NCBI GenBank assembly: GCA_009838735.1 | Contig: VXQZ01000049.1 | Coordinates: 1-64,000 of the forward strand | Length of the DNA stretch: 64,000 nucleotides | DNA from: Chloroflexota bacterium | Lineage (GTDB): Bacteria > Chloroflexota > Dehalococcoidia > Bin125 | Direction: 5' to 3' | Shown here: piece by piece, positions 6,841 to 51,830 of the stretch | Layout of the letters: each line of letters opens with the position of its first letter | Numbering within the stretch: the stretch's first letter is position 1 | The notes under the pieces: model-generated | Databases searched by the model: none | Seen by the model: only the letters and a program-made list of their open reading frames with translations | Told to the model about the DNA's origin: nothing | Made by a program: the position numbers and the translations under genes

Positions 6841-7665
6841 CTAGAAGCGGTCCTGATACGACCTCGCCAGCGACTCCGACGGATCGGCCTGGATGCCGAG
6901 CGGCGGAATCGGATATCTGAGCCCGTTCCGTGACAGCTTGTCCAGACCGTCGAGCAGCTTGGGCAGATATCGGGGCGGGATCGCCATCAGCAGCTCGTCG
7001 TCCTGGACACCGCCGAAGCGGCGCTCGGCGTAACAGGGAATGCTGAGCGACGGCTCGCCGGTGCGCAGCGCCCGTCCCCAGCTGTCGGCGCAGGCGGACT
7101 CGCCAACCGAGGCAAACTCGAACTTCTTGAAGCCCGAGAACTGCAGTCCGTTGATCAGGATGATCATCTGTCCCGGTGTGCCGTAGAGCAGCACGACGTC
7201 GGGCGGATCGAGCCGGCCGGTGGCGATCGGCGACAGTGCCAGCGCTGCGTAGCGGCCGTAGGGCATCACATCCATCGCCTGCTGATGGAGAATCGAGTCC
7301 TCGTCGGTTTCGAACCAGACGTTGGTCATCGTGGTGCGCAAACGCCACTCGCCGTCGTCTTCGTTCGGATGCAGCCCAACCGGTGCGCCGCATTGCGCGC
7401 CGATCAGATCGTCCATCGTCACTCCTAAGGTGAAGTTGAGCCAGCGGGCCTGCGCGACCAGCTGGTCAAGGGCGTGCTTGAACTGCGGGCGGCGGATGCG
7501 CTCGACCTCCTGCATCTCTTCGACCGTCTCGAACATCTTCATCCCGACCGGCGTCGCGGTCAGTCGCAGGTAGCGCTGCAATCCGGCCACGATGCCGGGC
7601 CAGTCGTAGCTGTCGGGCTCGGGCGGTGCGTCCGCTGAGATTCCAACGGCTGGTGCGGTGGTCAT
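6841..7665 (-). CDS. DUF169 family protein
   Basis: A 274-residue protein of the DUF169 (COG2043) family. Family function is not established. Visible features: N-terminal LQRYLRLTATPVGMKM, then an invariant-looking AQCGAPVGLH segment with a cysteine around residue 99, DDPVVLLYG-like DVVLLYGTPGQMI, and an FASVGESACADSW segment with another cysteine. These Cys-Gly signatures are typical of the family and suggest metal or cluster binding, but that is inference. Start at 7665 (MTTAPAVGI) was preferred because GGAG lies upstream; the long open frame to 8187 overlaps an unrelated plus-strand gene. The gene converges with the SDR and diverges from the anchored binding protein. Confidence 0.8.
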   Translation of the reverse strand: MTTAPAVGISADAPPEPDSYDWPGIVAGLQRYLRLTATPVGMKMFETVEEMQEVERIRRPQFKHALDQLVAQARWLNFTLGVTMDDLIGAQCGAPVGLHPNEDDGEWRLRTTMTNVWFETDEDSILHQQAMDVMPYGRYAALALSPIATGRLDPPDVVLLYGTPGQMIILINGLQFSGFKKFEFASVGESACADSWGRALRTGEPSLSIPCYAERRFGGVQDDELLMAIPPRYLPKLLDGLDKLSRNGLRYPIPPLGIQADPSESLARSYQDRF

Positions 7666-7803: not shown

Positions 7804-9003
7804 ATGCTTGCCCGTTGTCGCACCCATCTCATGATCGCCATTGTCGTTGCGGCGGCGATTGTCGTGACCACGCTGATTAACCAGCTCATGTTCGAATCGG
7901 CCGAAGCTGATTCGCACGACCGCGTCACGACCGAGGTGCGGATCAACGCGAAGCAACTGGCCGACGGACGCGTCGAGTTCGCCCTGCAGCAGTGGGACGG
8001 CAGTCAGTGGGGCGAGCGAATCCTGCCGCGTCCCCGGCTCTTCCCGGCCAACTCTCCCGTCGATCTGTGGCGCAACAGCGGTGGGATCGAGGTCCAGACG
8101 CCCGTGCCAGCAGCGCCAATGCCCTCGCTTTGCGTGGTCGCAAACGGCGATTCCGACGAACTGTTCTGGCAGTTCGTGGAGTTCCACGCTGCACGGGCGG
8201 CCAATCTGATTGGAGTGAAGCTCGACTACTCAACCCACACCAACGTCGATGATCGAGTCGACGCGATCGAGCAATGCGTCGATGACGGCGCGAGGATGAT
8301 CCTCGCCACCCTGGCTGACGCCGACCAGATCATTCCGGCGCTGGAAGCAGCAGCAGAGCATGGCGTCCAAATCGCCAGCTTCGGAGCGGGCGAAGAGCAT
8401 GCCGACCGTGCCGGATCGCTCATCCACGTCTCGATGGACGAAGCCGCGGCCGGTCGCCGGGCAGCGGAACAGTTCAACTCGGCCGCCGTTGCCGGGCCAG
8501 TCCTGTGCGTGGTCCATCACGACGCGTATGCAGCCCGCAAGAACATCTGCACCGTGCTGGCGGAGGAGTACATCGGCGGCGATGTTGAACAGCTTCAACT
8601 CGGCGCCGAAGACGCCGACGAACAGATCGACAGCACCCTGCGTGACATCCCCGACCTGGCCGGGCTGCTCGTGCTGGAAGCCGATCTCCTGCCAGCTGCA
8701 ATCAGGGCTATCGAGGACTCGGACGACCCGCCATTCCTCGGTTCGATCGGTGAATACCCGCTGAGCAAGCTCGGGTTTGCGAAGCGGGACCTGATTCGCT
8801 TTACGGTGATGGACCTGGCGCGCTTTGAAGTGTTGCTCGCCGCAGCGGCGCTGCACTACATGTACGCCAACCATCCCAACGCCCGATTCTTCGAAGGCGC
8901 GATGATCTTTGACGGCACGCCCAACGTCCACATCGGAGGCCCGAAGGGCGGTCACGGTCGCCCTTCGACCGATGACGGCCACGGTCACGACCATGATCAC
9001 TAA
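7804..9003 (+). CDS. anchored periplasmic-binding-like protein with WGERxLP module and His-rich tail
   Basis: A 399-residue extracytoplasmic protein. Start at 7804 is supported by GGAAGG 7 nt upstream; a 24-codon extension is open but lacks a ribosome site. Residues 9-29 are an uncleaved-looking membrane anchor. Residues 45-97 are the WGERxLP module (WGERILP at 69-75). Residues 108 to about 365 are a type 1 periplasmic-binding fold (Peripla_BP_4-like) with cysteines in SLCVVANG, IEQCVDDGA, VLCVVHH and NICTVL. The last 17 residues are rich in His, Asp and Gly (GHGHDHDH end), a likely metal-binding tail. No transporter gene is adjacent; CoA-transferase genes follow. Ligand unknown; ribose-type sugar-binding proteins are the closest general fold. 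Confidence 0.85.
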   Translation: MLARCRTHLMIAIVVAAAIVVTTLINQLMFESAEADSHDRVTTEVRINAKQLADGRVEFALQQWDGSQWGERILPRPRLFPANSPVDLWRNSGGIEVQTPVPAAPMPSLCVVANGDSDELFWQFVEFHAARAANLIGVKLDYSTHTNVDDRVDAIEQCVDDGARMILATLADADQIIPALEAAAEHGVQIASFGAGEEHADRAGSLIHVSMDEAAAGRRAAEQFNSAAVAGPVLCVVHHDAYAARKNICTVLAEEYIGGDVEQLQLGAEDADEQIDSTLRDIPDLAGLLVLEADLLPAAIRAIEDSDDPPFLGSIGEYPLSKLGFAKRDLIRFTVMDLARFEVLLAAAALHYMYANHPNARFFEGAMIFDGTPNVHIGGPKGGHGRPSTDDGHGHDHDH

Positions 9004-9059: not shown

Positions 9060-10289
9060 ATGCCAGCGCTCGACGGACTCCGCATCCTCGACATGACCCA
9101 GTACGAAGCGGGAACGTCCTGCACGCAGGCGCTGGCCTGGCTGGGCGCCGACGTGGTCAAGATCGAGCAGCCGGGCCAGGGCGATCCCGGCCGCGGCGTG
9201 CGCGAGGATGGGCTCGATTCGCCCTACTTCGTCGCCTGGAATTCTAACAAGCGCTCGGTAGCGATCGATCTGAGCTCTGAGCGTGGACGAGAACTCCTGC
9301 TCGAACTGGCGTCGCATTATGACGTGTTCGTCGAGAACTATGGCCCGGGTGTGATGGAGCGGCTGGGTCTGACCTACGAGGCGCTGAAGTCGGTCCAGCC
9401 GAGCATCATCTATGCACGCATCAAGGGATTCGGGCTGACTGGTCCGTATGCCGAGTTCAAGTGCTTCGATCCGATCGCGCAGAACGCGGCCGGCGCGTTT
9501 TCGACCACCGGATTCGCCGACGGCCCGCCGACGATGCCGAAGGCGGCGGTCGGCGATTCGGGCACGGGCATGCAGATGGCGTTCGCAATTGCCGCCGCCT
9601 ACATCCAGCGGCTGCGCACGGGCGAGGGTCAGGAGATCGAGATCTCGATGCAGGAGGCGATGACCTATTGCATGCGCACCTACGTCTCGCAGACCGACGG
9701 CTGGGGCGAGAGCGTCGTACCGCGCAATGGCAACGGCTTCGGTTTCAGCGCCTCCGACCTCTATCCCTGCAAGCCGGCGCCGGACTCGGATGGGTCGAAC
9801 GACTACGTCTACATCATCCTCACGACCTCCCGGATGTGGGACACGTTATGCACAGCGATGGAGCGGCCTGAGTTGACGGTCGATCCGCGTTTCGTGGAAG
9901 ACGAGGAGAGGGTTGAACATCAGGCCGAGCTACAAGAAGAAATCCGTTCCTGGACCCTGCAGCACACCAAGTGGGAGGCCCAGGAGATCCTGGCCGGAGC
10001 CGGTGTGCCCTGTTCGGCCACGCACGATACCTATGACCTCTTTCACAACCCGCATTTCGAAGCGCGCGGCTTCATCCAACATCTCGATCATCCCGAATGG
10101 GGCGCCATCCGCCAGCTCGGCTGGGCGCCGCGACTCTCCGGCTCAAACGTCGCGATGACGGCTGCGCCGCTGCTTGGGCAGCACACCGCGCAGGTGCTCT
10201 GCGACGACCTTGGGATAGAGGCTGAGGAGTTTGCCAAGCTCGATGCGGAGGGGATCGTCAGTGGCCACCGCAGTGGCCTCTCTGGCTGA
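9060..10289 (+). CDS. CaiB/BaiF family (type III) CoA-transferase, copy 1
   Basis: Transfers CoA between carboxylic acids through an aspartyl-CoA intermediate. The 409-residue protein has family landmarks: [23 protein letters not shown] at the N-terminus, VVKIEQPGQGDPGRG, the ENYGPGVMERLGL turn, and GDSGTG at 165-170 with the expected catalytic Asp166. It belongs to a local set of paralogues (10405, 22244 and a broken copy at 15651) sharing the same opening 48 residues almost unchanged. It starts 56 bp after the anchored binding protein with AGGAAGGAA upstream. Real acyl substrates cannot be read from sequence; carnitine, oxalate, bile acid and aromatic acid CoA-transferases all belong here. 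Confidence 0.93.
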   Translation: MPALDGLRILDMTQYEAGTSCTQALAWLGADVVKIEQPGQGDPGRGVREDGLDSPYFVAWNSNKRSVAIDLSSERGRELLLELASHYDVFVENYGPGVMERLGLTYEALKSVQPSIIYARIKGFGLTGPYAEFKCFDPIAQNAAGAFSTTGFADGPPTMPKAAVGDSGTGMQMAFAIAAAYIQRLRTGEGQEIEISMQEAMTYCMRTYVSQTDGWGESVVPRNGNGFGFSASDLYPCKPAPDSDGSNDYVYIILTTSRMWDTLCTAMERPELTVDPRFVEDEERVEHQAELQEEIRSWTLQHTKWEAQEILAGAGVPCSATHDTYDLFHNPHFEARGFIQHLDHPEWGAIRQLGWAPRLSGSNVAMTAAPLLGQHTAQVLCDDLGIEAEEFAKLDAEGIVSGHRSGLSG

Positions 10290-10404: not shown

Positions 10405-11625
10405 ATGCCAGCTCTCGACGGACTCCGCGTCCTCGACATGACCCAGTATGAAGCGGGCACGTCCTGCACTCAGGCGCTGGCCTGGCATGGCGCAGACGTG
10501 GTCAAGATTGAACAGCCCGGCGTTGGCGACCCGGGTCGCGGCGTCGGCAGCGGCGACGCGATTGATTCTCACTACTTCATCAACTGGAACGCCAACAAGC
10601 GCTCGGTCACGATCAACCTGCGCGACGAGCGGGGCAAGGCGCTGCTCTTCGAGATGCTGCCCCACTATGACGTCTTCGTCGAGAACTACGGACCCGGCGT
10701 GATGGAGAAGCTGGGCCTGACCTACGAGGCGCTCAAGGAAGTTCATCCGAGCATCATCTACGCGCGACTCAAGGGATTCGGCCTCTCCGGACCGTTTGCG
10801 AACTTCAAGAGCTTCGATCCGGTCGCGCAGAACGCGGCCGGCGCGTTCTCGGTTACCGGAGAAGAAGGCGGGCCGCCGATGCGTCCCGGCGCCTGCGTTG
10901 GCGACAGCGGCACAGGGATGCAACTCGCCTTTGCCATCACGTCCGCCTACGTGCAGAAGCTGCGCACCGGCGAGGGTCAGCACATCGAGATCTCGATGCA
11001 GGAAGCGATGACCTACTACGTCCGCACTCCGGTCGCAGGGACCCAGAGCTGGGGCGACGTCGCCGCCGAGCGGCGAGGCAACGGCTGGAACGGGCCGACC
11101 GACCTGTACCCCTGCAAGCCATTGCCCGACTCCAACGGGGCGGACGACTACCTCTACATCATCGCCCTGACAACCCGCATGTGGGACACCTTCTGCGCGG
11201 CGATGGATCGTCCGGATATGGTCGTCGATCCACGCTTCGCCGACGAGCAAGCGCGGATCGACAACAACGACGCGCTCAAGGCCGAGATCCGCGCCTGGAC
11301 ATTGCAGCACACCAAGTGGGAGGCGATGCAGATCCTCGGCGAGGCCGGCGTGCCCTGCTCGGCCACGCACAGCACCTACGACCTGTTCCACAACCCCCAC
11401 TTCGAGGAGCGCGAGTTCATCCAGGACATCGACCACCCGGAGTGGGGCCCAATCCGCCTGCTCGGCTGGGCACCGAAGATGTCGAAAAGCAACGTGCCGA
11501 TGATAGCCGCGCCGCTGCTGGCGGAACACACCCGCGAAGTCCTCTGCGACGACCTCGGCATCGAAGGCGAAGAGTTCGCCAGGCTCGAGGCAGAGGGAAT
11601 CGTCAGCAGCCGCAACGGCGCCTAG
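10405..11625 (+). CDS. CaiB/BaiF family (type III) CoA-transferase, copy 2
   Basis: Paralogue of the preceding gene (same fold, same order of motifs), 406 residues. Catalytic Asp is Asp167 in VGDSGTG. It differs from copy 1 mainly around residues 48-56 and 205-230, and in His28 within the ALAWHGADV segment. The last 115 codons are close to identical at DNA level to the 3' part of the broken copy at 15898-16241. The 3' end converges on dppC with only 12 bp between stops, and the sequence across that junction is copied inside the broken gene (see 15651). Tandem orientation with copy 1 and a 115-bp gap suggest separate or shared transcription. Confidence 0.93.
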   Translation: MPALDGLRVLDMTQYEAGTSCTQALAWHGADVVKIEQPGVGDPGRGVGSGDAIDSHYFINWNANKRSVTINLRDERGKALLFEMLPHYDVFVENYGPGVMEKLGLTYEALKEVHPSIIYARLKGFGLSGPFANFKSFDPVAQNAAGAFSVTGEEGGPPMRPGACVGDSGTGMQLAFAITSAYVQKLRTGEGQHIEISMQEAMTYYVRTPVAGTQSWGDVAAERRGNGWNGPTDLYPCKPLPDSNGADDYLYIIALTTRMWDTFCAAMDRPDMVVDPRFADEQARIDNNDALKAEIRAWTLQHTKWEAMQILGEAGVPCSATHSTYDLFHNPHFEEREFIQDIDHPEWGPIRLLGWAPKMSKSNVPMIAAPLLAEHTREVLCDDLGIEGEEFARLEAEGIVSSRNGA

Positions 11626-15650: not shown

Positions 15651-16241
15651 ATGCCGGCTCTTGATGGAATGCGCGTCTTGGATATGACCCAATACGAGGC
15701 GGGCACGTCCTGCACGCAGGCGCTGGCCTGGCTTGGCGCGGATGTGGTCAAGGTCGAGCAGCCCGGTGTGGGCGACCCCGGGCGCGGCGTCGAGGAGAAT
15801 GGTCTTCGTGTCCTGGCGAACATGGACCTCACCCACGCGGCCGCTGGTTGGGTCGTCGGCTAGCGCAGGTTGCGCGGGCGCGGATGGAGGGGAGGTACGC
15901 TCAAAGCCGAGATTCGCGCCTGGACATTGCAGCACACCAAGTGGGAGGCGATGCAGATCCTCGGCGAGGCCGGCGTCCCCTGCTCGACCACGCACAGCAC
16001 CTACGACCTGTTCCACAACCCTCACTTCGACGAACGTGAGTTCATCCAGGACATCGACCACCCCGAGTGGGGCCCCATCCGCCTGCTCGGCTGGGCGCCG
16101 AAGATGTCGAAGAGCAACGTCCCGATGACAGCCGCCCCGCTGCTGGCCGAGCACACGCGCGAAGTGTTGTGTGACGACCTCGGCATCGAGGGCGAGGAGT
16201 TTGCTCGGCTCGAATCGGAGGGCATCGTCAGCAGCCGTTAG
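15651..16241 (+). pseudogene. CaiB/BaiF CoA-transferase, internally deleted copy
   Basis: The first 51 codons (15651-15803) match the start of the neighbouring CoA-transferases, from MPALDG through [11 protein letters not shown]. From about 15898 to 16241 the sequence matches their last 115 codons (KAEIRAWTLQHTKWEAM to the SSR end). The middle of roughly 230 codons, including the catalytic GDSGTG Asp, is missing. In its place lie about 95 bp with a TAG stop. Part of that insert (TCGGCTAGCGCAGGTTGCGC, near 15856) closely matches the junction between CoA-transferase copy 2 and dppC at 11630-11652. The gene is therefore a product of recombination between repeated copies, not simple point decay. 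A ribosome site (GGAAGGA) is still present. Confidence 0.9.
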
Positions 16242-16529
16242 CGGCTGACGAACGCGAGCCGTCCCTTCGGCCGCATACAGAGTCCCTGCTTCACTCAACG
16301 CCTGTCCCGGTTCTCACCGCGGCGCCACGTGTCCATCGCGACGCGAGTGATAGCGAGTTCCCTCCGGGCATCAGCAGCTGCCAACGTGCAGCGAGTGTTT
16401 ATGTACCTGCTGAAGTGCTCTGTCCGCCTCGGAAATGTACATAACACTGACAGAACTGTAAATTCAGCCATATCATTGAGCCTCGACATTGATGGACCTC
16501 TCATGGATGGATGATTGCGGGGATTTAGC

Positions 16530-18950
16530 GTGCGCCGAACATTCCGTCTGATCCGCACTGGCAGGGCCACAACGCTGGTTCTTTTCGTAGCTGCCGTAGC
16601 AACTGCGCTCGTGAGCATCGCGTTGGTCTCCGAAGTGGGCGCGCATCCGCCGGCCGAGGGCCCATCCATCCGCGTCTCAGCACTCAAAGGCGAAGACGGG
16701 CGGGTGACCGTTGGCGTTCAGGTGCTCGAGGAGGATGGTCGGTGGGGCGAGCGGCTGCTGCCGACAAGGCGTGTCATCTCGGCTAGCTCTCGGGCCAATA
16801 CCTGGCTGCGCAGTTCGCCGGTCACTATTGACGGCGGTAACGAACTGAGGCCGCTCTTCTGTGTGGTGGCGCATGGCGGAACTGACGACCACTTCTGGAT
16901 GAAGTTCCGTTCCTTCCTCTACCAGGCAGCCGATCGGAGCGCTAGCAATCTACGCTTCGAGACTCACTTGCAGGCCGATGACCAGGTAGCCGCCATTGAA
17001 CGCTGTGTCTCAGATGGCGCGGCCGTCATTGCCTCGACTCTGGCGAGTCCTGACGATGTCCGGGAACCTCTGATGCAGGCCAAGGCCGCCGGGACGCAAG
17101 TAATCACCTTCAACGCCGGTGTCGAGCACGCCAAGAGCGTCGGCTCAGAAATCCATATCGCGCTCAACGACCACGCTGCGGGGGAACTGGCAGGACAGCA
17201 GTTCAATGAGCGCGGCATCACCGGCCAAGTCGCCTGCCTGATCCATGAGCGAGACAACCTCAGCCTCGAACATCGCTGCGACGGACTCGAGGCCTCCTAC
17301 CAGGGCGCTGGCGTCATGCGGATTCGTCTCGAGGAAGTCGACTCTCATCTCGAGCACGATCATGGCAGCTACGTCGACGATCTGGCCGAGGTGCTCATTG
17401 AGGATCAGCAAGGGATCAAGTACGGCGCCCTGCTCACGTTGAACGCCGACACGCTGACGCATGCATTGACCGCCGTTCAACAACTCGACGGCGCTGCGGA
17501 CGGATTGGTCATCGCCTCGGTGGGATTCAACGTCGATGATCTCGCGGAGATCCCCACGGATTTGCTCGATCTGCACCTTGGATCGCTGATTAGCGACAGC
17601 GCTGATGCGCAGGGGTTCTTCGTTGGCAGCGCGCTGCAGCTTTCTTACAACTTGCACAATGCCCATGTCATCGGGCAGCCCCAGTTGTGGCTGGCCGATC
17701 CTTCCCTCCTTGACCATCACACCGTTGGTGGCAACGCTGAAACACTCGAAGCCCTTTCCGCCTCACTCGATCGGATCATCGAGCAATACTCCACGTCGCG
17801 GCGTCCTGCACCAGGTGTCAGGGTCCGCGTGGCCGCGCTCAAGCGCGACGACGGCTCGGTCGCCTTCGCGATCGAGTCGATGGGGGCCGAGGGTCGTTGG
17901 AGCAGCCGACAGTTGCCGCAGCGTCGCGTCCTCTCCACAGATGCGCCCACCGGGGCCTGGTCAGCGAGTTCAGCGGTCGAGTTGTCGAGCGCCGCCGAAC
18001 AGGCGCCTCTCTTCTGTGTGGTCACGCACGGCTCCAAGGAGGACCGATACTGGCAGGTCGCACGCGCATACATGCACGTCTCAGCCCACGTCACGAACAC
18101 CAACTGGCGCTACGAAGCCCATCTTGACGGCGCCGACCAGGCCGCGGCCATCGACCAGTGCAGCGCCGACGGCGCCGTCGTCATCGCCTCCACTCTCGCC
18201 GATCCCGAGGCGGTGACCGACTCACTGCTTGCCGCCAAACAGGCAGGCGCTCGGATTGTGACCTTCAACTCCGGCGGCGACTACGCCGCCGCCGCTGGCT
18301 CCGAGATCCACGTCGCATTGGACGACCGTGAAGCGGGCGCTGCGGCCGGGCGTGTCATCAACGAGCACGACATCAGCGGACCGATCGCCTGCATCTTCCA
18401 TGAAACCGGCAACGTTGGCCTGGAAGAACGCTGCGAGGGTCTGGAGGCTACTTATCAGGGCGGGAGCGTGAGTCGGCTGCAACTCACCGAGGGAGCGACA
18501 GACGAGCAGGTAATCGACGAGCTCGTCAATGCCTTGACGGATCCCGAGCGACCGGCGATTGAACTGGTACTCACCCTCAACGCCAATACCCTATTCGGCG
18601 CGTTGGACGCAGTCAGTCAAATCCACGCCGAAGGCGGTCGGACGATACAGGTCGTCCCGATCGGTACGCACGTCGAGCTGATACGTCGCTCTACTCCAGA
18701 GACGAGAGCGCGTCACCGGCTAGCGGGGTTTAACGACAGTGTCGAGTCGCAGGGATTCCTCGTCGTCAGCGCGATGCACTTCGTCCACCATCATCCCACG
18801 CCACCCGCATTCATCGACAGACCGCAGCTTTGGCTAGCCTCTCCGTTTGCCTTTGATACCAGACGGGCGGGCAGGGATCCGGCCGCCTCCAGAAGGTCCA
18901 CTGCGACACTCAATCGGTACGTGGAAGAAGCCGCCGCAGACGACAAGTAA
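16530..18950 (+). CDS. two-unit anchored periplasmic-binding-like protein (copy A)
   Basis: About 806 residues. GTG at 16530 is preferred because GGGGA lies 6 nt upstream; TTG at 16515 is the alternative. Residues 12-36 form a membrane anchor or signal ending near AHPPAEGP. Two units follow. Unit 1: WGERxLP module 46-101, binding domain 108 to about 415. Unit 2: module 430-486 (degenerate core WSSRQLP), binding domain 493-806. Each domain has the same landmarks: LFCVV.HG, an ERC or DQC segment followed by DGA.VIASTLA, TFN(A/S)G, and a (C)LIHE..N.(S/G)LE.RC(D/E)GLEA.Y motif, with four cysteines per unit (unit 1: 111, 159, 236, 250). The fold resembles type 1 sugar-binding proteins. No transporter is adjacent. 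It is a tandem duplicate of the gene at 19629. Confidence 0.85.
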   Translation: MRRTFRLIRTGRATTLVLFVAAVATALVSIALVSEVGAHPPAEGPSIRVSALKGEDGRVTVGVQVLEEDGRWGERLLPTRRVISASSRANTWLRSSPVTIDGGNELRPLFCVVAHGGTDDHFWMKFRSFLYQAADRSASNLRFETHLQADDQVAAIERCVSDGAAVIASTLASPDDVREPLMQAKAAGTQVITFNAGVEHAKSVGSEIHIALNDHAAGELAGQQFNERGITGQVACLIHERDNLSLEHRCDGLEASYQGAGVMRIRLEEVDSHLEHDHGSYVDDLAEVLIEDQQGIKYGALLTLNADTLTHALTAVQQLDGAADGLVIASVGFNVDDLAEIPTDLLDLHLGSLISDSADAQGFFVGSALQLSYNLHNAHVIGQPQLWLADPSLLDHHTVGGNAETLEALSASLDRIIEQYSTSRRPAPGVRVRVAALKRDDGSVAFAIESMGAEGRWSSRQLPQRRVLSTDAPTGAWSASSAVELSSAAEQAPLFCVVTHGSKEDRYWQVARAYMHVSAHVTNTNWRYEAHLDGADQAAAIDQCSADGAVVIASTLADPEAVTDSLLAAKQAGARIVTFNSGGDYAAAAGSEIHVALDDREAGAAAGRVINEHDISGPIACIFHETGNVGLEERCEGLEATYQGGSVSRLQLTEGATDEQVIDELVNALTDPERPAIELVLTLNANTLFGALDAVSQIHAEGGRTIQVVPIGTHVELIRRSTPETRARHRLAGFNDSVESQGFLVVSAMHFVHHHPTPPAFIDRPQLWLASPFAFDTRRAGRDPAASRRSTATLNRYVEEAAADDK

Positions 18951-19628: not shown

Positions 19629-22061
19629 ATGACTACAGGCAAGCCCGAATACATCCGTATGAGCCGAACGCAAGCTTGGGTGACGATTGCATTGGGACTG
19701 GTCATCGCATTCACGACCCTTGCCAGCCTCTCGCTTGTCAACGTTGCCAAGGCGCATCCGCCTGCTGAAGGCCCATCTGTCCGTATTTCTGCGCTCAAAG
19801 GCGATGGCGGTACAGTAACGGTCGCCATCCAGGTGATGGGACCGGACGGCACCTGGGGTGAGCGGCTGCTCCCGGCCAAGAGCCTCCTGACAACTACCTC
19901 CCCCTACGACACCTGGCTGCGTAGTGACGCGGTCAGCATTGATCGCGGCCGCGATCTGTCGCCGCTGTTCTGTGTAGTCGCGCATGGCGCACCCGACGAT
20001 AGCTTCTGGCTGAAGTTCCGTGCCTTCCTCTACCAATCTGCCAACCTGACCGACAGCGATATACGCTTCGAGACGCACTTGAGCGGCGCCGACCAAGCCG
20101 CTGCGATCGAGCGCTGCATCGCCGACAATGCTGCGATGATCGCCTCGACCATGGCAAGTCCCGCCGACGTTAGCGGGCCACTGATCAGGGCCAAGGCAGA
20201 AGGCGCTCGGATTGTCACCTTCAACGCCGGGCTTGAGCACGCCGAGAGCGTAGGCTCACAGGCCAACATCGGACTCAACGACCGAGCGGCCGGCGAACTG
20301 GCGGCGCGCGAATTCAATCAGCGCGGCATTAGCGGTCAGATCGTCTGCCTCATCCACGAACGAGACAACCTCAGTCTCGAAGATCGGTGCGACGGGCTTG
20401 AAGCCGTCTACGGGGGCGCTGGTGTGACCCGAATTCGGCTTGAGGAAGCAGCGAACGACCTTGAGCATGGTTCAACCAGTCGCATCGATAGGATTGCCAG
20501 CCTGCTCGGAGGTACAGAGGGGCCGCCGTACGACGCTGTGCTCGCGCTGAACGCAGACACATTGCGGCAAACGCTCGCCGCAGTGAGTCGATTGGACGGC
20601 GCCGCCGAAGGACTGCGAATCACCGCGGTTGGCGCAACGTTCGATGACTTGGTCGGATTCCCCGAGGCGTTGCTCGAACAGCACGTCGATGTGCTGATCA
20701 GCGACAGCGTTGAAACTCAGGGCTTCTTCGTCGCGAGTGCGATGGAGCTGATCTACAACGTGCACAATGGCAGATTCGCCAGCCAGCCACAGCTATGGCT
20801 AGCTCAACCCTCGCTCATTCGCTACCAAACTGCCCGCGAGAACACCGACGAGTTCGAGTCCATTTCGGCCTCGCTCGAGCGGTTGATCGAACAGTCCCGC
20901 ACGACGGAGCGCCAAGCAGTCCAGGGCGATGTCCGGGTCGCTGCCTTCCAACGACTCGATGGCTCGATCGTCTTCGCGATCGAGTCGTTGGGAGCTGACG
21001 GCCGATGGATCAGACAAGACCTGGGCCCACGGCGCGTCTTACATGTCGATGCGCCCACCGGCCGTTGGTTGTCGACCTCGGCGGTTAAGCTGTCGAGTCC
21101 CTCTGAACACGCCCCGCTCTTCTGCGTGGTCACGCATGGTTCGAAGCAGGACTACTACTGGAAAGTATGGCGCGCCTACATGCACCTGGCCGGCCACCTC
21201 GCCGATAGCAACTTCCGCTATGAGTCGCATCTCGACGGCGCTGATCAAGCAGCGGCCATCGACCAGTGCAGCGCTGACGGCGCCGCTGTGATCGCCTCCA
21301 CGCTGGCGGATCCAGAGGCGGTGACGGATTCCTTGCTGGCCGCCAAGCGGGCTGGGGCTCGAATTGTCACCTTCAACTCCGGCGACCGGCACGCCGCCGC
21401 TGCCGGCTCCGAAATCCACGTCGCCCTGGACGACCGCGAGGTCGGTCCCATCGCGACGCGCCGAATCGCTGAGGAAGGCATCACAGGGCCGATCGCGTGC
21501 ATCATCCACGAGGACGGCAATGACGGGCTGGAGGAACGCTGTGACAGTCTGGAGCAGTCCTACACGGGAGCGAGCGTCATCCGACTGAGACTGACTGAAG
21601 GTGCGACGAACGCACAGATTGTCGACGAGCTCATCACTGCCCTGACTGATCCTCGGCATGTCGACATTGAACTCGCGATGGTGCTCAATGCCGACACGAT
21701 GCTCAATGCTCTTGATGCGTTCGATCAAATTTTCACCGCGTCCGGGCGCAGTATCAGAATCCTGTCCATCGGAGCAACTGTCGATCTTGCACGGGTGAGC
21801 CTGGACATCAGGAACCGCCACCTCAGGGCGCTCTTCAACGATAGTGTCGAGTCGCAGGGTTACCTGGTCATGAGCGCGATGCAGTTCGTCCACAACTACC
21901 ACACTCCGGCCGAGCTCGTTGGCAGTCCTCAGCTCTGGATGGCTTCTCCATACCTCCTCGACTCAGCCAAAGCCCGCGCTGCTGTGACTGCGGAGGAACT
22001 GCGCTGGCTGATCACGACCCAGCGGCGGTATGTGGCCGAGGCCGCGGCAGACGACGAGTAA
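19629..22061 (+). CDS. two-unit anchored periplasmic-binding-like protein (copy B)
   Basis: 810 residues, paralogue of the protein at 16530. Residues 15-40 form an anchor followed by AKAHPPAEGPSVR, nearly the same as copy A. Unit 1: module 51-104 with WGERLLP, binding domain from 113. Unit 2: module around 434-490 with a decayed core (RWIRQDLGPRR), then a second binding domain to the C-terminus. The four-cysteine pattern is kept in each unit. By eye the two paralogues agree at more than half of positions, with unit 1 aligning with unit 1 and unit 2 with unit 2. The two-unit layout therefore predates the gene duplication. AGGGGA lies just before the ATG; ATG at 19659 is an alternative start. 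A CoA-transferase follows. Confidence 0.85.
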   Translation: MTTGKPEYIRMSRTQAWVTIALGLVIAFTTLASLSLVNVAKAHPPAEGPSVRISALKGDGGTVTVAIQVMGPDGTWGERLLPAKSLLTTTSPYDTWLRSDAVSIDRGRDLSPLFCVVAHGAPDDSFWLKFRAFLYQSANLTDSDIRFETHLSGADQAAAIERCIADNAAMIASTMASPADVSGPLIRAKAEGARIVTFNAGLEHAESVGSQANIGLNDRAAGELAAREFNQRGISGQIVCLIHERDNLSLEDRCDGLEAVYGGAGVTRIRLEEAANDLEHGSTSRIDRIASLLGGTEGPPYDAVLALNADTLRQTLAAVSRLDGAAEGLRITAVGATFDDLVGFPEALLEQHVDVLISDSVETQGFFVASAMELIYNVHNGRFASQPQLWLAQPSLIRYQTARENTDEFESISASLERLIEQSRTTERQAVQGDVRVAAFQRLDGSIVFAIESLGADGRWIRQDLGPRRVLHVDAPTGRWLSTSAVKLSSPSEHAPLFCVVTHGSKQDYYWKVWRAYMHLAGHLADSNFRYESHLDGADQAAAIDQCSADGAAVIASTLADPEAVTDSLLAAKRAGARIVTFNSGDRHAAAAGSEIHVALDDREVGPIATRRIAEEGITGPIACIIHEDGNDGLEERCDSLEQSYTGASVIRLRLTEGATNAQIVDELITALTDPRHVDIELAMVLNADTMLNALDAFDQIFTASGRSIRILSIGATVDLARVSLDIRNRHLRALFNDSVESQGYLVMSAMQFVHNYHTPAELVGSPQLWMASPYLLDSAKARAAVTAEELRWLITTQRRYVAEAAADDE

Positions 22062-31587: not shown

Positions 31588-32150
31588 GGCAGCCCTCTTT
31601 GCTGGTGAACACAGGGTATTGATCGGCAGCTCGCCTGGGTGACTGCGATCACCGTCCCCCTTCGGCGCTCTGAGCTGTGTGGTTGTCAGCGACGGGCGAC
31701 GATCAACTGCGCCAACACCACATCGCAGAGATATTGCGCGGAGCGACGCAGGCTCGAGCCAATCACTGTCTTCATAGATCGCCAATGCAGAACCTGCCAG
31801 CCGGTCAGTCTTGTTCTCGAGATCGTCGGTGGTGCGACCGATCAGCCGTGCGCAGATGAATTCTGTGCTAACGAGTCTGCATTCAATGACAATAAACCCC
31901 GGCAAATGACGACATAAGAACAATCGTAGTGTAAATTCTCGAAGTCGTTCCCGAACAGGAACCGTGGATGTATCGGTTGGAGCACCCACGTGTGTGACCG
32001 CACGCCCACCGGCGACGTTTCGATTGCCACCGCTTGGCCGGTTGCGTCTGTCTCAGCGTGTGGGCCCGACCTCGTGCTCCGCGCGACGCCCGCGCCGCGG
32101 CCGTATCGATGCCAAGACGAGCCCGGTCTCGAGCCAGTGGCAATGCTCGT
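31588..32150. other. intergenic region without recognised gene
   Basis: 563 bp between the divergent LLM oxidoreductase and peroxidase genes. An open minus-strand frame (to 31989) and several plus frames exist, but none shows a recognisable domain or ribosome site. It is relatively AT-rich around 31880-31935 (TGACAATAAACC and AATCGTAGTGTAAATTC), a likely promoter zone for one or both genes. Confidence 0.6.
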
Positions 32151-34865
32151 ATGAGCATTCCCCTGGCGGCGGTACAGTTGCGACTGCACCTCATCGCTCT
32201 GGGTGCGTTGTCGGGTGTCGGGCTGTTGACTGTGCTCGCAATGCTCGCCCCGCTGGCCGGCGCCCAGCACAGTGCGCCACCGTCATCTGACGGCGTCGCC
32301 GAGCTGCGCGGCGAGCAAATCTGGACGTCCACCATGACGGTCGGCTCCAATGGCCGCATGCTCGGCTTTGGCACGTTCGGTGGCCGAGATGTCGGACGAC
32401 TGAGCCAGAGCACCTTCACCTGGCGTGGGACGACGTACACCGTTGCCAACCTGTGGTCCAACGGAACTCCGGGCAGCGCTGACTCCTGGAGTGTGGTGAT
32501 CGATATCTCGCCGCCGTTGTCTCTCGAAGCGGAGGAGTACGGCTGCCTGACGCTTCAGCTCGGCCATCTCTGGCTCAACCTCGCCGACGGACGGGGCAAT
32601 GGGCGTCAGTTCTTCTGGTATGACGTCGAACTTTCCTGGAGCAGCGGAGCGTCCGTCGAGGTTGGCCTGAGGCAGTTTCCCGATTCGTTTGAAACTCGCT
32701 CGATCACCGGGTGGGGCAACAACTTGCAGCGACCGGAACTGGGTATGGCCGAAACTCAATTGCTGCGCGTGGCGCCAGTCGCATTCGCCTTCGCCATGAG
32801 CGGCGCGATGCAGGACGAACTGCCAGACGCCCGGATGATCAGCAACTCGGTTCACCAACAGGGCGAGCTCAGGCCAAACAGGACCAGGGCCACGGACATG
32901 CTGTGGCAATGGGGACAGTTCCTCGACCACGACATCAGCTTGACTCCGTCAACAGTCATCTCATCGCAGGACTCGATTCCCATCCCGCAGGGGGATCGCG
33001 AATTCGACCCGTTCGGTACTGGTCTGCGGTTCATCCCGTTCAATCGATCACAGTTTGACCCTGAGACTGGTCTCAGTCCCGACAATCCCAGGGAACAGCT
33101 GAACCTGATCACAGCGTTTATCGACGCATCGAACGTGTACGGATCGTCCAGCGATCGACTGAGCGAACTGCGCACCAATGACGGCAGCGGCCGGCTCAAG
33201 ACAACAGACGACGGACGATACCTGCCCCTCAATCCGCCGGGCCTCGAGATCGACGACGGTGGCAGACGCCGCAACGGACTGTTTCTCGCCGGCGACATTC
33301 GCGTCAACGAGCACGTAGTGCTGACTGCAATGCACACGCTGTTCGTACGGGAACACAACCGTCTCGCAGAACAGATCGCGATCGAACATCCCGATCTGAC
33401 CGGACACGAGATTTTCGAACTTGCCCGCAAGATCGTCGGGGCACAGATGCAGGTGATCACCTACCAGGAGTTCTTGCCTCTGTTGCTCGGACCGGACGCG
33501 ATGGGACCGTATGAGGGATACGACCCAGACGTTGACGCCGGCATCGCGAACGAATTCTCGACCGCTGCCTTCCGCGTCGGGCATACGATGCTCTCCCCCG
33601 CCTTGATGATGATCGACGAGGAGGACGATGTAGAACAGGTGCCGCTGGTCGAGCTCTTTTTCAATCCGCCGGCAATCAGAACTGCAGGAATCGAAGCGTT
33701 CCTGAGGGGACTCTCCACCCAATTGGCCCAGGGCATCGATCTCGCCCTGGTGGATGAAGTTCGCAGCATGCTCTTCGGTCCACCAGGAAGCTCGGGCCGC
33801 GATCTCGCTGCCCTGAACATTCAGCGCGGTCGGGACCATGGGCTGCCTCGATACAACATGGTGCGAACGGCGTACGGGCTGCCGCCGGTCGGCAGTTTTG
33901 CAGATATCTCGTCGGATCCTGAGGTTCAGCAAGCGTTGGCGCGTACTTATGCCGATGTGAATGATCTGGATCTCTGGACGGCCGGATTAGCCGAGGATCA
34001 CGTTCCTGGAGCCATGCTGGGTGAGACGTTTCGCACGATCATCGCCGACCAATTTCGCCGTTTGCGAGACGGTGATCGGTTCTGGTTTGAGAGTGATCCC
34101 TGCTTCCTGGCTAACCCTGAGCTACTGGCCGAAGTGCGGAGCACCACGCTCGCCGACATCATCCGCCGCAACACGCTGATCGATGACGAAATCGCTGACA
34201 ACGTGTTCGGTGGGATGCCACCGATAGTCAGTATCTCGGGGCCGAACCAGGCAGCAGCAGAGGGATCAGCGGCCGTGTTCAGACTCGACCGTAGTGGTCC
34301 CACCACGATTCCGTTGACAGTGAATGTCCGGATCTCGGAGACCGGCGCCACGCTGAGCGAATGGGCCGATCGAACGGCTGATGCCACTTTCGGAGCTGGC
34401 CAGGCAACGACCACCTTGGTCGTCGAGACTAACGCCGACAGCAATCCAGAATACGACAGCACAATCCTGGCAATGATCGCAGATTCCGATACCTATGAGA
34501 GCAGCGCCGAGTCGAATGCAGCGGACGCATTGGTGGTCGACGACGATGGGGTCGACCTGCATCTTGAGCCGGGCGTCAACGTCATTCGTTGGGCCGGACT
34601 CGACGGTGTGGACATCGTTTCTACACTGACGGGCAACGGCGACGCCGACGTCAGCGCGGAGATCGTTGCGATCTTCGAGTGGGACGAAACGGCTGAGCGC
34701 TGGCTCACGTTTTTTCCGGCTTTTGAGTCAGTACCTGGACTGAGTAGCGCGAACACCTTGCGCACGCTGAGAGCCGGGCAGACGTACCAGATCCGGGCGA
34801 CGCAAGCGCTGGTCTGGAGGATCCCGCGGCCCGACCTGATGATCGCTGTGCTTGGCGAGGGGTAA
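32151..34865 (+). CDS. secreted animal-type haem peroxidase with Calx-beta domain
   Basis: 904-residue peroxidase of the myeloperoxidase/peroxinectin superfamily. Residues 10-38 are a signal peptide ending AGAQ. Residues 55-175 form a beta-rich domain (IWTSTMTVG to VEVGLRQF) found in other surface proteins. The catalytic domain (about 180-700) has Gln256, Asp259 and His260 in WGQFLDHD (distal site), Arg384 and Glu387 in GDIRVNEH, and proximal His478 in FRVGHTM. Asp259 and Glu387 correspond to the two residues that form haem esters in myeloperoxidase. A Calx-beta-like segment follows (about 710-805), then a C-terminal domain (LEPGVNVIRWAG to VWRIP). Likely secreted, using peroxide to oxidise halides or phenols. 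ATG 32151 has a poor Shine-Dalgarno; 32109 is an alternative. Confidence 0.92.
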   Translation: MSIPLAAVQLRLHLIALGALSGVGLLTVLAMLAPLAGAQHSAPPSSDGVAELRGEQIWTSTMTVGSNGRMLGFGTFGGRDVGRLSQSTFTWRGTTYTVANLWSNGTPGSADSWSVVIDISPPLSLEAEEYGCLTLQLGHLWLNLADGRGNGRQFFWYDVELSWSSGASVEVGLRQFPDSFETRSITGWGNNLQRPELGMAETQLLRVAPVAFAFAMSGAMQDELPDARMISNSVHQQGELRPNRTRATDMLWQWGQFLDHDISLTPSTVISSQDSIPIPQGDREFDPFGTGLRFIPFNRSQFDPETGLSPDNPREQLNLITAFIDASNVYGSSSDRLSELRTNDGSGRLKTTDDGRYLPLNPPGLEIDDGGRRRNGLFLAGDIRVNEHVVLTAMHTLFVREHNRLAEQIAIEHPDLTGHEIFELARKIVGAQMQVITYQEFLPLLLGPDAMGPYEGYDPDVDAGIANEFSTAAFRVGHTMLSPALMMIDEEDDVEQVPLVELFFNPPAIRTAGIEAFLRGLSTQLAQGIDLALVDEVRSMLFGPPGSSGRDLAALNIQRGRDHGLPRYNMVRTAYGLPPVGSFADISSDPEVQQALARTYADVNDLDLWTAGLAEDHVPGAMLGETFRTIIADQFRRLRDGDRFWFESDPCFLANPELLAEVRSTTLADIIRRNTLIDDEIADNVFGGMPPIVSISGPNQAAAEGSAAVFRLDRSGPTTIPLTVNVRISETGATLSEWADRTADATFGAGQATTTLVVETNADSNPEYDSTILAMIADSDTYESSAESNAADALVVDDDGVDLHLEPGVNVIRWAGLDGVDIVSTLTGNGDADVSAEIVAIFEWDETAERWLTFFPAFESVPGLSSANTLRTLRAGQTYQIRATQALVWRIPRPDLMIAVLGEG

Positions 34866-48377: not shown

Positions 48378-50009
48378 TCAGTTGTCGCCGTCCCCAGCGT
48401 CATCTCCTGAATCGCCACTGTCGGATCCATCGTGCTCCGCGCTATCACTGCCGGTCAGATAGCGCTCCTTGATTTCCGGGGGGATCAGCCCGCTCAGCAC
48501 GCGTTGCATCTGTTCGGCATCGGCGATCTGCGGTTCGATCAGCATCGCCATCCCGTTGAACAGCGTGACCGGATCGAGTCTCATGCGCTCGATCAGCAAC
48601 GCGCCCATGACGCCCAAGTAGGTCTGGACCAGCGGGTGGTCGTAGATGGCGAACATGATCTTGCCTTCCTCAACCCACTTGGCGAAGCCGAGGTTGAACC
48701 CGAAGGTGGCCAGCGGAACCTCGGGGTCGGGCCACTGCGCCCGGAGGACGGCGGAGCCGACAGAATCGGAGAGTGCCATCACGGCGCCGATGTCGCCCTG
48801 GGCGTACCGTTCGAGCACTGCCTCGGCGGCGTCCCGGCCTTCGTGGCTCCAGGTCTCGACTTCTCCGTTGGCGTAGGTCGCCGCGAGACCGTCACAGCGC
48901 TCCTGCAGACCGATGTTGTTGGCCTCGTGAATGACGCACAGGATCGTGCCCTCGGTGCCTTCACGGTTGAACTGTTGACCGGCGACCTCACCGGCGCGGC
49001 GATCGTCGAGGCCGATGTGGAAGCTGGTGCCAACATCAGCGGCGGCGTGGACGCCGGAGTTGAAGGACATGACCGGGATGCCGGCCGCCTTCGCCTCTGC
49101 AATCGCTGGCGCCAGATCCTCCGGCGAAACCAACGTGGTCGCAATCGAGACGGCGCCGTCCTCGACGCACTGCCGAATCGCATCGGCCTGGTCTGAAACC
49201 TGACTGAACGACTGAGCGCGCACGTTGATGCCGAGGGCTGCCCCAGCAATGATCGCGGAGTCGGAAGCCTGACCCCAGAAGAAGTCCTGTCCGCCGTGGC
49301 TGATCACGCAGAACAGATCGTCGCCGGCGGGCAGCTGCGGGTCGATGGGCTCGAACCAGTAATGGACCCAGGTCCAGCCGAGATCGGGGTTGTTGAGCAA
49401 CACGTGGTCGCGAGCGAAGACGGCCGTCTCGAGTATATGGTTCGAGGTGGCCAAGATCTGCGAGATTTCGCCGGCCAGCAGGCGACGCTCCACCTCATCG
49501 GCGACCGCGTTGTAGTCGTCCGACTCGATCACATCGACGCCGGCTGGGAACGTCTCGCCGATCCCGTCGCACAACGCGCCCAGTGTGGCTTCTGAAGGAT
49601 TGACCAGGCAGAGTACCGGGGCGAGCGATTCGAGGTCGTCATCAGAATGGAATCGGCCAACGAAGTACTGCCCGTACAACCGACCGACTTCAACCAGATA
49701 GTTCTGATATTCGGTGGCGATGAACTCGGCCCGGGTGACGAGATCGAACACGACTGGAGAGCTGTATTTCACCTTCCCGACCTCTGTCTCGGGGAGCAGG
49801 AAGCGACGCTCTGGCTTCTTCGTCTCGCCCCACTCTCCGTCGTCACCGCGCTGCTGCAAGCCAATCTCGACACTGCCGTCCTGGAGCCGCTCGACCGAGA
49901 CACGAACTTCGAACTCCTCGTCTTCGCCATTCCGGTCCACGGCCCAGACTCCGCCCAGCGCCGCCGCTCCGATCAGCGTGCCGAGCAGAAGAACAATCAA
50001 TGTCCGCAT
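48378..50009 (-). CDS. anchored binding-like protein with WGERxLP-type module and half-domain remnant
   Basis: 543 residues. Residues 3-22 are the membrane anchor (LIVLLLGTLIGAAALGGVW). Residues 35-88 are the module (core WGETKKP). Residues 131-200 (PVLCLVNPSEATLGALCDGI and following) match the second lobe of the binding domain found later in the same protein (TILCVIHEANNIGLQERCDGL). Residues 232 to about 505 are a complete binding domain (LFCVISHGGQDFFWGQ, IRQCVEDGA, SIATTLVSPED, MSFNSG). Thus the first unit has lost its first lobe. The C-terminal 26 residues are Asp, Gly and Ser rich. Paralogue of the next gene upstream. No transporter is adjacent. Confidence 0.85.
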   Translation of the reverse strand: MRTLIVLLLGTLIGAAALGGVWAVDRNGEDEEFEVRVSVERLQDGSVEIGLQQRGDDGEWGETKKPERRFLLPETEVGKVKYSSPVVFDLVTRAEFIATEYQNYLVEVGRLYGQYFVGRFHSDDDLESLAPVLCLVNPSEATLGALCDGIGETFPAGVDVIESDDYNAVADEVERRLLAGEISQILATSNHILETAVFARDHVLLNNPDLGWTWVHYWFEPIDPQLPAGDDLFCVISHGGQDFFWGQASDSAIIAGAALGINVRAQSFSQVSDQADAIRQCVEDGAVSIATTLVSPEDLAPAIAEAKAAGIPVMSFNSGVHAAADVGTSFHIGLDDRRAGEVAGQQFNREGTEGTILCVIHEANNIGLQERCDGLAATYANGEVETWSHEGRDAAEAVLERYAQGDIGAVMALSDSVGSAVLRAQWPDPEVPLATFGFNLGFAKWVEEGKIMFAIYDHPLVQTYLGVMGALLIERMRLDPVTLFNGMAMLIEPQIADAEQMQRVLSGLIPPEIKERYLTGSDSAEHDGSDSGDSGDDAGDGDN

Positions 50010-50116: not shown

Positions 50117-51652
50117 CTATTCCTGCCATTCGGTCAGGGAATCGAGCAAGGCCTGCATTTCTTCGGCGTTGACGATCGTCGGCGTGATGAGCATCTGGGC
50201 GCTGTTGAAGTAGGACATCGGATCGATCCGCAGGCGCTCGGTCAACAATGCGCCGACGGCGGCCAGGTAGGACTGGATCTCGGGATGGTCGAAGATGGCG
50301 AACATGAGCCTCCCGTCGGCGACGTACTCGGCGACGGTCCGGCTGAAACCGAACGTCGCGCCCTTCACGTTGAGCCGCGAATCGAAGATGGCGCTGCGGA
50401 TCTCGACGCCGATCGACGACGACAGACCGAGCACAGCGCTGACGTCACCTTCATCTAGTCGCGCGTGCAACTCCTCGACCGTGGTGTCACGATCGGTCAT
50501 GCTCCAGCGTTCGACAGTCCCGTTGAAGCTCTCCGTGAGCCCGTCGCAGCGGTCGTGGAGTCCCTGGTTTTCCGGCTCATGGATGACGCAGAGCACGTTG
50601 CCCTCAATGCCCCGTCGGTTGAACTCCTCGCCAGCCACGCGGCCGGCCACAAGATCGTCAAGCGAAATGTGCAGGGCGGTGCCCACCTCGGCGGCATCTT
50701 CAGCGCCCGAGTTGTAGGAGATTACGGGAATGCCCGCGGCGATTGCATGGCGGACCGCCGGTTGCATTGCTTCGGGATCGGCGAGGGTGGTGGCGATGGC
50801 GACCGCGCCGTCGGCTACGCAGCGTCGGACGGCATCGGCCTGCGCGGCGCTGTTGGTGTAGACCTCGTTGCGCACGTTGATTCCGAGCATGCCGGCGGCG
50901 GCGACAGACGACTCGGCCGCCAGGCCCCAGAACAGGTCTTCGTCGCTGCCGTGACTAATCACGCAATGCAAATTGTTCGGCGGGGGCAGATGCGGATCAA
51001 TCAGCTCGATCCAGTAGCTCCAGGGAATGAATCGGCGGGTCGCCTCGCGCGCCTCGTCGACGATGTTGGCAGTGGGCACGCTTGTGGCGAAGAGTGCCCC
51101 GAGTTCCCGATCTTCCAACAGCCTCGTTTCCAACTCGACTCGGAAGTCGTCGTAGTCGCTGACCTCCCAGCGCTCGACTTCGCCACCGTAGGTTGACTCG
51201 ATGCCGTCGCAGTAACTGCCAAATCCGGGATCATTGAGGTCATTGACGCAGAGCATCCTGGGAAGGTCCCCGGCGCCACCAAGTCGCTCGTGGAAGCGCA
51301 GGGCCGATTCTTGTCCGGAGGCGAAGAGATATTCCGCGTAGGCACCCGCGACGGTCTCGTAACGGCTGTCCGTATCGACGATCACGACGGAACTGTGCAA
51401 CGGGCGGTCAGCCCGGGCACCGGCGAGCAGGAAGCGATGCTCCGGCCGGAGCGTCTCGCCCCATTCGCCACTCACTTCGCGCTGCTGCAGCCCAACCTCG
51501 ACATCTCCGCTGGCGTGGCGCTCAACGATGATGCGTACGTCGACGGCGCCATCGGGATCGTCGGGAGTGTTGGCCACATTCGCCCAAACCGCCCCCAGTG
51601 TCGCGGCGCCCAGGATGAACCCCAATGCGACCCAGATGAGATTTCGCATCAT
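50117..51652 (-). CDS. anchored binding-like protein with WGERxLP-type module and half-domain remnant (paralogue)
   Basis: 511 residues from ATG 51652, preferred because GAAAGG lies 6-7 nt upstream; a GTG at 51658 is also in frame. Residues 5-25 form the anchor and residues 38-92 the module (core WGETLRP). Residues 131-205 are the leftover second lobe (RMLCVNDLNDPGFGSYCDGI), and residues 227-511 a full binding domain (LHCVISHGSDEDLFWG, VRRCVADGA, AIATTLADPEA, ISYNSG, VLCVIHEPENQGLHDRCDGL). Same architecture as the 48378 protein, without the acidic tail. The pair lies in tandem, with a 107-bp gap. Ligand unknown. Confidence 0.85.
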   Translation of the reverse strand: MMRNLIWVALGFILGAATLGAVWANVANTPDDPDGAVDVRIIVERHASGDVEVGLQQREVSGEWGETLRPEHRFLLAGARADRPLHSSVVIVDTDSRYETVAGAYAEYLFASGQESALRFHERLGGAGDLPRMLCVNDLNDPGFGSYCDGIESTYGGEVERWEVSDYDDFRVELETRLLEDRELGALFATSVPTANIVDEAREATRRFIPWSYWIELIDPHLPPPNNLHCVISHGSDEDLFWGLAAESSVAAAGMLGINVRNEVYTNSAAQADAVRRCVADGAVAIATTLADPEAMQPAVRHAIAAGIPVISYNSGAEDAAEVGTALHISLDDLVAGRVAGEEFNRRGIEGNVLCVIHEPENQGLHDRCDGLTESFNGTVERWSMTDRDTTVEELHARLDEGDVSAVLGLSSSIGVEIRSAIFDSRLNVKGATFGFSRTVAEYVADGRLMFAIFDHPEIQSYLAAVGALLTERLRIDPMSYFNSAQMLITPTIVNAEEMQALLDSLTEWQE

Positions 51653-51830
51653 ATTCACCTTTCGTTACGTCGAGTAGTTCGACGCATCCGTATCGTACCG
51701 AGAACGATCGGCGTGCAGAATCGAGTACTGCGGTCCGGATTCACGGCCAATCTGATGTTCCCTGGTGCGAGTGGTCGATCAACGACCGGGAGCGCTTATC
51801 CTGCCGACGGCGCAATCGGGCAATCAGTTC

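Follow-up and report, generated by a model that had tools for sequence, protein, structure and literature searches.

A CUT2-type binding protein with a His/Asp-rich tail, altered pocket residues and a candidate surface-retention module in a Chloroflexota bacterium

Introduction

A stretch of 64,000 nucleotides from a Chloroflexota bacterium (contig VXQZ01000049.1, assembly GCA_009838735.1; hereafter the window) encodes a binding-like protein, P0001, with a His-rich C-terminus, and about 6 kb from its gene a superoxide dismutase gene (sodC). The first-pass annotation had described a module common to both, which a profile HMM bears out (Table 1), and had taken this as a hint of an anchored system dealing with Cu, Zn or Ni, or with oxidative stress. 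Does the module link the two proteins in function, and what do tail, binding domain and module each suggest about P0001?

Results and discussion

A tail conserved in four proteins

P0001 is exported and belongs to a set of paralogous CUT2-type (sugar-binding-like) proteins. A lipobox scan of its N-terminal region found no lipobox. Its start codon is ATG, as in two of its three orthologues, the third having CTG at that place. In a full-length structure model the module and the tail were poorly predicted.

Table 1. Features of P0001, its neighbours and other module proteins of the window
Feature	Position	Strand	Basis or remark
His-tailed binding-like protein P0001, 399 aa + stop	7804..9003	+	translation; three orthologues, 55-70% identity
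N-terminal hydrophobic segment, then AEA-D (possible signal-peptidase I site)	7828..7893	+	site by eye
Shared module, ~52 aa, VRI.A..L.DGRVEFALQ..DG.QWGERILP..R....W..S	7936..8088	+	HMM, 75.9 bits
Periplasmic-binding domain, PF13407 / CUT2 sugar-binding fold, pocket residues replaced	8125..8838	+	Pfam, Foldseek, pocket comparison
NVHxGGxxGGHGR motif	8923..8961	+	4/4 orthologues
His/Asp-rich C-terminal tail GHGRPSTDDGHGHDHDH	8950..9000	+	
SodC (Cu/Zn superoxide dismutase), module 1188-1346 ahead of PF00080	708..1463	-	PF00080 E 1.4e-31; module HMM
DUF169-like gene, divergent neighbour	6841..7665	-	beside orthologues in L058, L059, L060, 94-99% identity
CaiB/BaiF-type CoA-transferase, next gene downstream	9060..10289	+	ORF list
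Second CaiB/BaiF-type CoA-transferase	10405..11625	+	best match of gene beside orthologues (L058, L059, L060), 82-98% identity
Protein of two module + binding-domain units in one chain	16515..18950	+	modules 16668-16826, 17823-17981
Protein of two module + binding-domain units in one chain	19629..22061	+	modules 19779-19937, 20931-21086
Module + binding domain, acidic His-poor tail	48378..50009	-	module 49752-49907
Module + binding domain	50117..51658	-	module 51383-51538

Translation confirmed the reported ending rich in His and Asp: the last 17 residues (GHGRPSTDDGHGHDHDH) hold five His and four Asp, and the final eight read GHGHDHDH. At a His frequency of 3.1% outside the tail of P0001, the binomial P for five or more His in 17 residues is 1.4e-4, a value that ignores the choice of the stretch; conservation is therefore the better argument for the tail. 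A search of 61 genomes found full-length orthologues in G014 (70% identity), G009 (62%) and G008 (55%), and the tailed protein is present in four of 15 congeneric genomes, that of P0001 included. All four tailed proteins share PNVHxGGxxGGHGR, followed by an acidic stretch and a terminal His (DH or GH), and they end in GHGHDHDH, GHGHDDGH, a long His/Asp stretch and DDDQRDDQDH. The G008 orthologue has a single His after GGHGR, the final residue of its tail, and a metal role would therefore be weak there. The next-best matches of P0001 (31-37% identity) are paralogues without a tail, their alignments ending at or before residue 376, ahead of the tail. The His tail is kept in the three orthologues and missing from the paralogues.

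We also tallied 94 module ORFs from the loci examined (those with the same last 60 residues were merged, and some copies are cut). A count of at least three His among the final 17 residues is confined to P0001 (five), L029 (four) and L030 (three); the third orthologue, L031, has two, not above five unrelated ORFs among those listed. Acidic tails (at least seven D/E in the last 20 residues) occur in 5/94 ORFs, two of them orthologues. The dN/dS of P0001 against three genomes was ~0.17-0.25, with synonymous sites near saturation, versus ~0.01-0.16 for three neighbouring genes, and its identity across genomes was 55-70% versus 94-99% for the DUF169-like neighbour; compared with its G009 orthologue, P0001 is 39% identical over the module region and 67% over the binding domain. 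Judged from these comparisons, P0001 is under purifying selection yet fast-changing.

A sugar-binding fold with replaced pocket residues

The binding domain matched PF13407 (E 4.8e-16; 59.5 bits against a Pfam cut-off of 35.1), the only Pfam match of P0001 at E <= 1; a ZnuA-type domain was not matched. Over residues 111-340 the full-length model (block pLDDT mostly 77-95) has the two-lobe sugar-binding fold, supported by Foldseek to 4ru1 (E 4e-17) and by a sequence profile (E 9e-36).

The pocket was compared in an alignment of 51 non-redundant rows (47 paralogue and four tailed). Eight residues (H114, D119, N194, H238, E239, N242, L245 and R248 in P0001 numbering) are held by 45 of the 47 paralogue rows, while the same positions differ in 31 of 32 cells of the tailed proteins, the exception being H238, which P0001 keeps. 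In the order P0001/L030/L029/L031, the tailed proteins have N/N/N/D at 114, E/K/K/A at 119, G/G/G/G at 194, H/P/P/K at 238, H/H/H/Q at 239, Y/Y/H/P at 242, R/R/R/R at 245 and I/I/V/I at 248. The aromatic pair F121 and W122 is retained in all four; E197, E292 and E317 are invariant in them, position 292 being N in 33 and S in nine of the 47 paralogue rows. Positions 119, 194, 248 and 292 presumably fall on ligand contacts of ribose-binding protein, as judged by hand alignment. The pocket of the tailed proteins looks like either a shift to a cationic ligand or a loss of binding; as it appears rebuilt with invariant Glu residues, a cation would be thinkable as ligand.

P0001 has the same domain and fold as the CUT2 monosaccharide ABC binding proteins (Peripla_BP_4, e.g. 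4ru1). Unlike these, its shared polar residues are replaced, it has no lipobox, it carries an N-terminal module and a His/Asp tail, and its contig (C38) holds no PF02653 permease match. In the draft genome as a whole (56 contigs), PF02653 gave five matches (two on C39, one on C13 and two on C10), and the C13 permease adjoins two module-free Peripla_BP_4 proteins. A permease belonging to the tailed protein itself is thus not in sight. With the ZnuA-type Zn/Mn ABC binding proteins (cluster A-I), P0001 has in common that it is exported with a His-rich stretch. In ZnuA this stretch is an internal loop, whereas P0001 belongs to another Pfam family and its His-rich part is a C-terminal tail. Cluster A-I is named in the abstract of PMC9820375.

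A widespread module on proteins of many kinds

The module profile started from four window copies and was refined by repeated searches of the window plus 17 stretches of its genome, chosen by the matches of an earlier search; it found 41 copies (>25 bits) on 28 ORFs, often as tandem pairs. The carriers (kinds assigned by eye save where Pfam backs them) are binding proteins, SodC, proteins with RCC1-like or Cache-like repeats, a Peripla_BP_6 Leu-binding-like protein, protease-like proteins and others. The genome of P0001 has 48 matches. The module is present in all 15 congeners (13-50 matches each, at least that many where 150 candidates were scored) and, at E <= 0.001, in 18 of 20 family genomes (alignment A1). 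Wider samples, with 16-22 candidates scored per genome, found it in at least 39/393 genomes and 12/226 genera of the class (E <= 1e-5), in at least 7/400 genomes of the phylum (E <= 0.001, two marginal) and in at least 14/296 genomes of the Acidimicrobiia, the class of G451. Twelve of these 14 carry two weaker copies and no more, both within an ORF of 841-881 aa; in the four such ORFs inspected (L088, L089, L090 and L091) the copies lie near the C-terminus, and L026, in P0001's own genome, looks like a relative. A scan of the named genomes returned 21 loci, three being the orthologues and 18 matching over the module or little more.

The module lies beside a hydrophobic segment or C-terminally in 85 of the 94 ORFs; it stands just after such a segment in 73 and is C-terminal in nine, as a pair in eight of these. 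Exceptions are an internal module (9/94) and the lack of a hydrophobic segment in the first 200 residues (9/94, some being cut ORFs).

Over the module of P0001 there was neither a Pfam match at E <= 1 nor an NCBIfam match. No Pfam or NCBIfam cut-off was reached over any of the modules scanned (best E 0.0057), the surface-retention families SLH, LysM and CWB2 being unmatched, and five module pairs searched against Pfam at E <= 10 gave only MerB (0.25) and DUF5770 (0.011), both below cut-off. The structure predicted for a tandem pair of L082, together with 12 relatives, is an all-beta, compact unit (pLDDT 97.2, pTM 0.88). Foldseek found no PDB match to this fold at E <= 0.001 (best 9oee_A, E 0.027); the best VIA hit was an S-layer protein at Z 5.7, within the range that the tool calls common; a viral library gave no match at E <= 0.001; the module sequence profile reached E 0.21 at best against the PDB; and one module pair had no match among plasmids and phages. 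As no solved structure clearly matches the module, retention gains no support from the fold. Among the papers listed in literature searches, neither titles nor abstract openings mention a module of this kind. SLH, LysM and CWB2 are small cell-surface retention domains. Like them, the module is short, often tandem, terminal and found on proteins of unrelated function; it differs in having no Pfam or NCBIfam model at cut-off and no clear fold match.

Two side observations concern module copies. Loci L073 (5498-6064) and L078 (7995-8525) hold three tandem modules of 97-100% identical DNA, which suggests that they arose recently by duplication or by gene conversion, unless they are an assembly artefact. 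A large ORF of the window (32034-34865), peroxidase-like by eye, has no module, and a similar Acidimicrobiia ORF (L076, 3144-5312) carries two.

Modules and lipid anchors

Lipoboxes were detected with a home-made regular expression, three cases being settled by eye (L116, L120 and, counted as one, a Peripla_BP_4 pair); the script missed the lipobox of L116 and L120, both seen by eye. The own-genome set comprised six Peripla_BP_6 matches (L092 and L093 being one ORF) and 31 SBP_bac_5 matches, 30 of which yielded loci. Of the 35 distinct proteins, 34 have a lipobox and none of these has a module; the remaining one, L097 (Peripla_BP_6), has a module and no lipobox, and the module match of L096 is L097's own module in its flank. 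The two Peripla_BP_4 proteins without a module (L014) differ in this respect: by eye, a lipobox is present in one, and the other, of 372 aa, has no clear one; ten further Peripla_BP_4 proteins have a module and no lipobox. Thus among the own-genome solute-binding proteins examined, a lipobox occurs in 35/36 module-free versus 0/11 module-bearing ones (Fisher P = 7e-10, the ten module-bearing Peripla_BP_4 proteins being paralogues and not independent); for Peripla_BP_6 and SBP_bac_5 alone, P = 0.029, resting on one module protein. As a separate observation, the SBP_bac_5 gene of L120 (C19) is interrupted, its lipobox and binding domain lying in different frames.

No lipobox was found before the module in the 28 module ORFs, at least three of which (L016, L018 and a 252-aa ORF of L013) are without their true N-terminus in the available DNA; one chance match, GASC, follows the module. 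Many of the hydrophobic segments are followed, by eye, by A-x-A-like sites.

SodC, present as one copy in 14 of 15 congeners, has the module in all 14 (HMM, 66-77 bits) and a lipobox in none. Five SodC matches from other genera are all module-free: L133 and L134 carry a lipobox, L149 and L150 seem to rely on a membrane helix, and L151 is a fragment. The lipid-anchored SodC proteins (one each in G018 and G016) resemble the window SodC, which has the PF00080 domain, and carry a lipobox and no module, whereas the congener proteins carry a module and no lipobox. The module thus tends to stand where a lipid anchor would, and other solutions exist: since there are module-free proteins without a clear lipobox (the 372-aa protein of L014; L149 and L150), the module is not the sole substitute for a lipid anchor. 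We infer that the module serves to retain exported proteins on the cell surface or in the matrix around the cell.

SodC, promoters and gene neighbourhood

The module is generic, with its 48 own-genome matches and its presence on 28 ORFs of many kinds, so that its presence on both P0001 and SodC is functionally uninformative. The two genes lie on different contigs in G014 and G008 and ~94 kb apart in G009. The step from the shared module to a metal function common to P0001 and SodC was rejected on both grounds, and the hint at Cu, Zn, Ni or oxidative stress drawn from the SOD-fused module falls with it.

A look for Zur- or CueR-type promoters was equally unrewarding: there was no convincing Zur, CueR or Fur box upstream. 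Five regulator boxes were compared with each of five upstream regions (25 tests, 300 shuffles each). For Zur before P0001, 62, 102 and 195 of 300 shuffles were as good for the three boxes used, which may not be those of this phylum. None of the 20 tests on P0001 and its orthologues was equalled by fewer than 29/300 shuffles, the lowest counts being 29 for Zur in L066 and 33 for Fur before P0001. Across all 25 tests, the strongest result was CueR before sodC (four mismatches of 14; 10/300 shuffles as good), and with so many tests this was counted as noise. No perfect inverted repeat (arms of 6-10 bases, gap of 0-15) was found before P0001.

Of the original metal-handling hint, what stands is the tail kept in three orthologues, and the pocket Glu residues make a cation thinkable; the generic module, the distance from SodC in the other genomes, the lack of a convincing regulator box, the sugar-type domain and the one His of G008 tell against it. 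A metal role for the tail is thus thinkable and, from the sequences, partly supported, with no support from the SodC link.

The order DUF169-like gene, P0001 and CaiB-type gene is conserved at the three orthologue loci (L058, L059, L060), and the same flanking genes, with no tailed gene between them, occur in L061 (G002) and L062 (G011).

The RHO, IRC, COS and SB bins are presumably also from sponges. PMC8163846 names Rhopaloeides, Ircinia and Coscinoderma, with no bin names in its accessible part. Chloroflexi bin125 (record MPNM) is tabulated in PMC5649159, which deals with the sponge Aplysina aerophoba, and jk18x bin names, as in two of the orthologue records, occur in an Ircinia sponge study (PMC9531527). 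Neither bin125 nor superoxide is mentioned in the accessible part of an A. aerophoba metaproteome paper (PMC6081418). CaiB/BaiF genes are reported to be enriched in SAR202 sponge symbionts (PMC6306507).

What the tailed protein may do

Our best explanation, held tentatively and at a little under an even chance, is that P0001 is a module-retained surface trap of CUT2 type with a changed pocket and a His/Asp tail. The module would be a generic retention domain, in the role that lipid anchors play for ordinary solute-binding proteins of the same genome. The binding domain has lost the polar residues shared by its paralogues, kept the aromatic pair and holds Glu residues instead. The tailed protein may then capture, at the surface, a ligand of another kind that is probably positively charged, and its tail might collect or buffer divalent metal; that pocket and tail serve a new, perhaps cationic, ligand is speculative throughout. 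The residue loss could mean decayed binding rather than a new ligand, and anchoring could be due to the hydrophobic segment at the N-terminus, if this stays uncleaved. Taken further, an undescribed small domain would, instead of lipid anchors, hold dozens of unrelated exported proteins (SodC and binding proteins among them) on the surface or in the sponge matrix in at least two sponge-associated lineages, Chloroflexota and Acidimicrobiia, and the tailed protein would be a sugar-binding protein turned into a surface trap for a metal or another cation; as a whole we find this claim rather doubtful.

Three other accounts deserve weighing. In the first, P0001 would be a plain sugar-binding component of an ABC transporter, and its tail disordered and functionless. 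This fits the CUT2 fold, with 4ru1 as the nearest solved relative, the nearest NCBIfam model (rhizopine-binding protein, at 47.6 bits far below its 420-bit cut-off) and the acidic tails on a few other module proteins; we nevertheless judge it unlikely, given the shared polar residues replaced in all four tailed proteins, the GGHGR invariant in each and the lack of a PF02653 match on the contig, although a distant permease could be shared. We give a similarly low standing to the idea that an uncleaved hydrophobic segment is the anchor and the module merely a stalk or spacer. It would account for the 73 ORFs with the module just after such a segment, but not readily for the nine with a C-terminal one, mostly paired; the A-x-A-like sites behind many segments and the prediction of a module pair as one compact unit also count against it. 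Very improbable, finally, is one anchored metal or oxidative-stress system of P0001 and SodC linked by the shared module. Both proteins are encoded in the same window, both carry the module and the tail is His-rich, yet the module sits on so many kinds of own-genome ORF, the genes are apart in all three other genomes, SodC is in 14/15 congeners versus 4/15 for the tailed protein, and a convincing metal-regulator box was not found.

Taken alone, the His tail matters little; of broader interest are the module and the rebuilding of the binding domain. If the module is a retention domain, it would show a lipid-anchor-free display of enzymes and binding proteins in uncultured bacteria, some of them known sponge symbionts, and one profile would be enough to list the surface proteins of such bacteria. 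The tailed clade is a clear case of a binding protein rebuilt within an otherwise conserved gene neighbourhood.

Further observations in the window

The two single-unit binding proteins on the minus strand (48378-50009 and 50117-51658) have ~120-130 extra residues between module and binding domain, which by eye resemble part of a binding-domain lobe. A short piece of a CaiB-type CoA-transferase (15870-16241) lies upstream of a double binding protein, and a related piece (54%) is found in L062 between binding-protein genes. An ORF at 40320-41150 contains many repeats of a short unit like TPDLTPTLRALQT.
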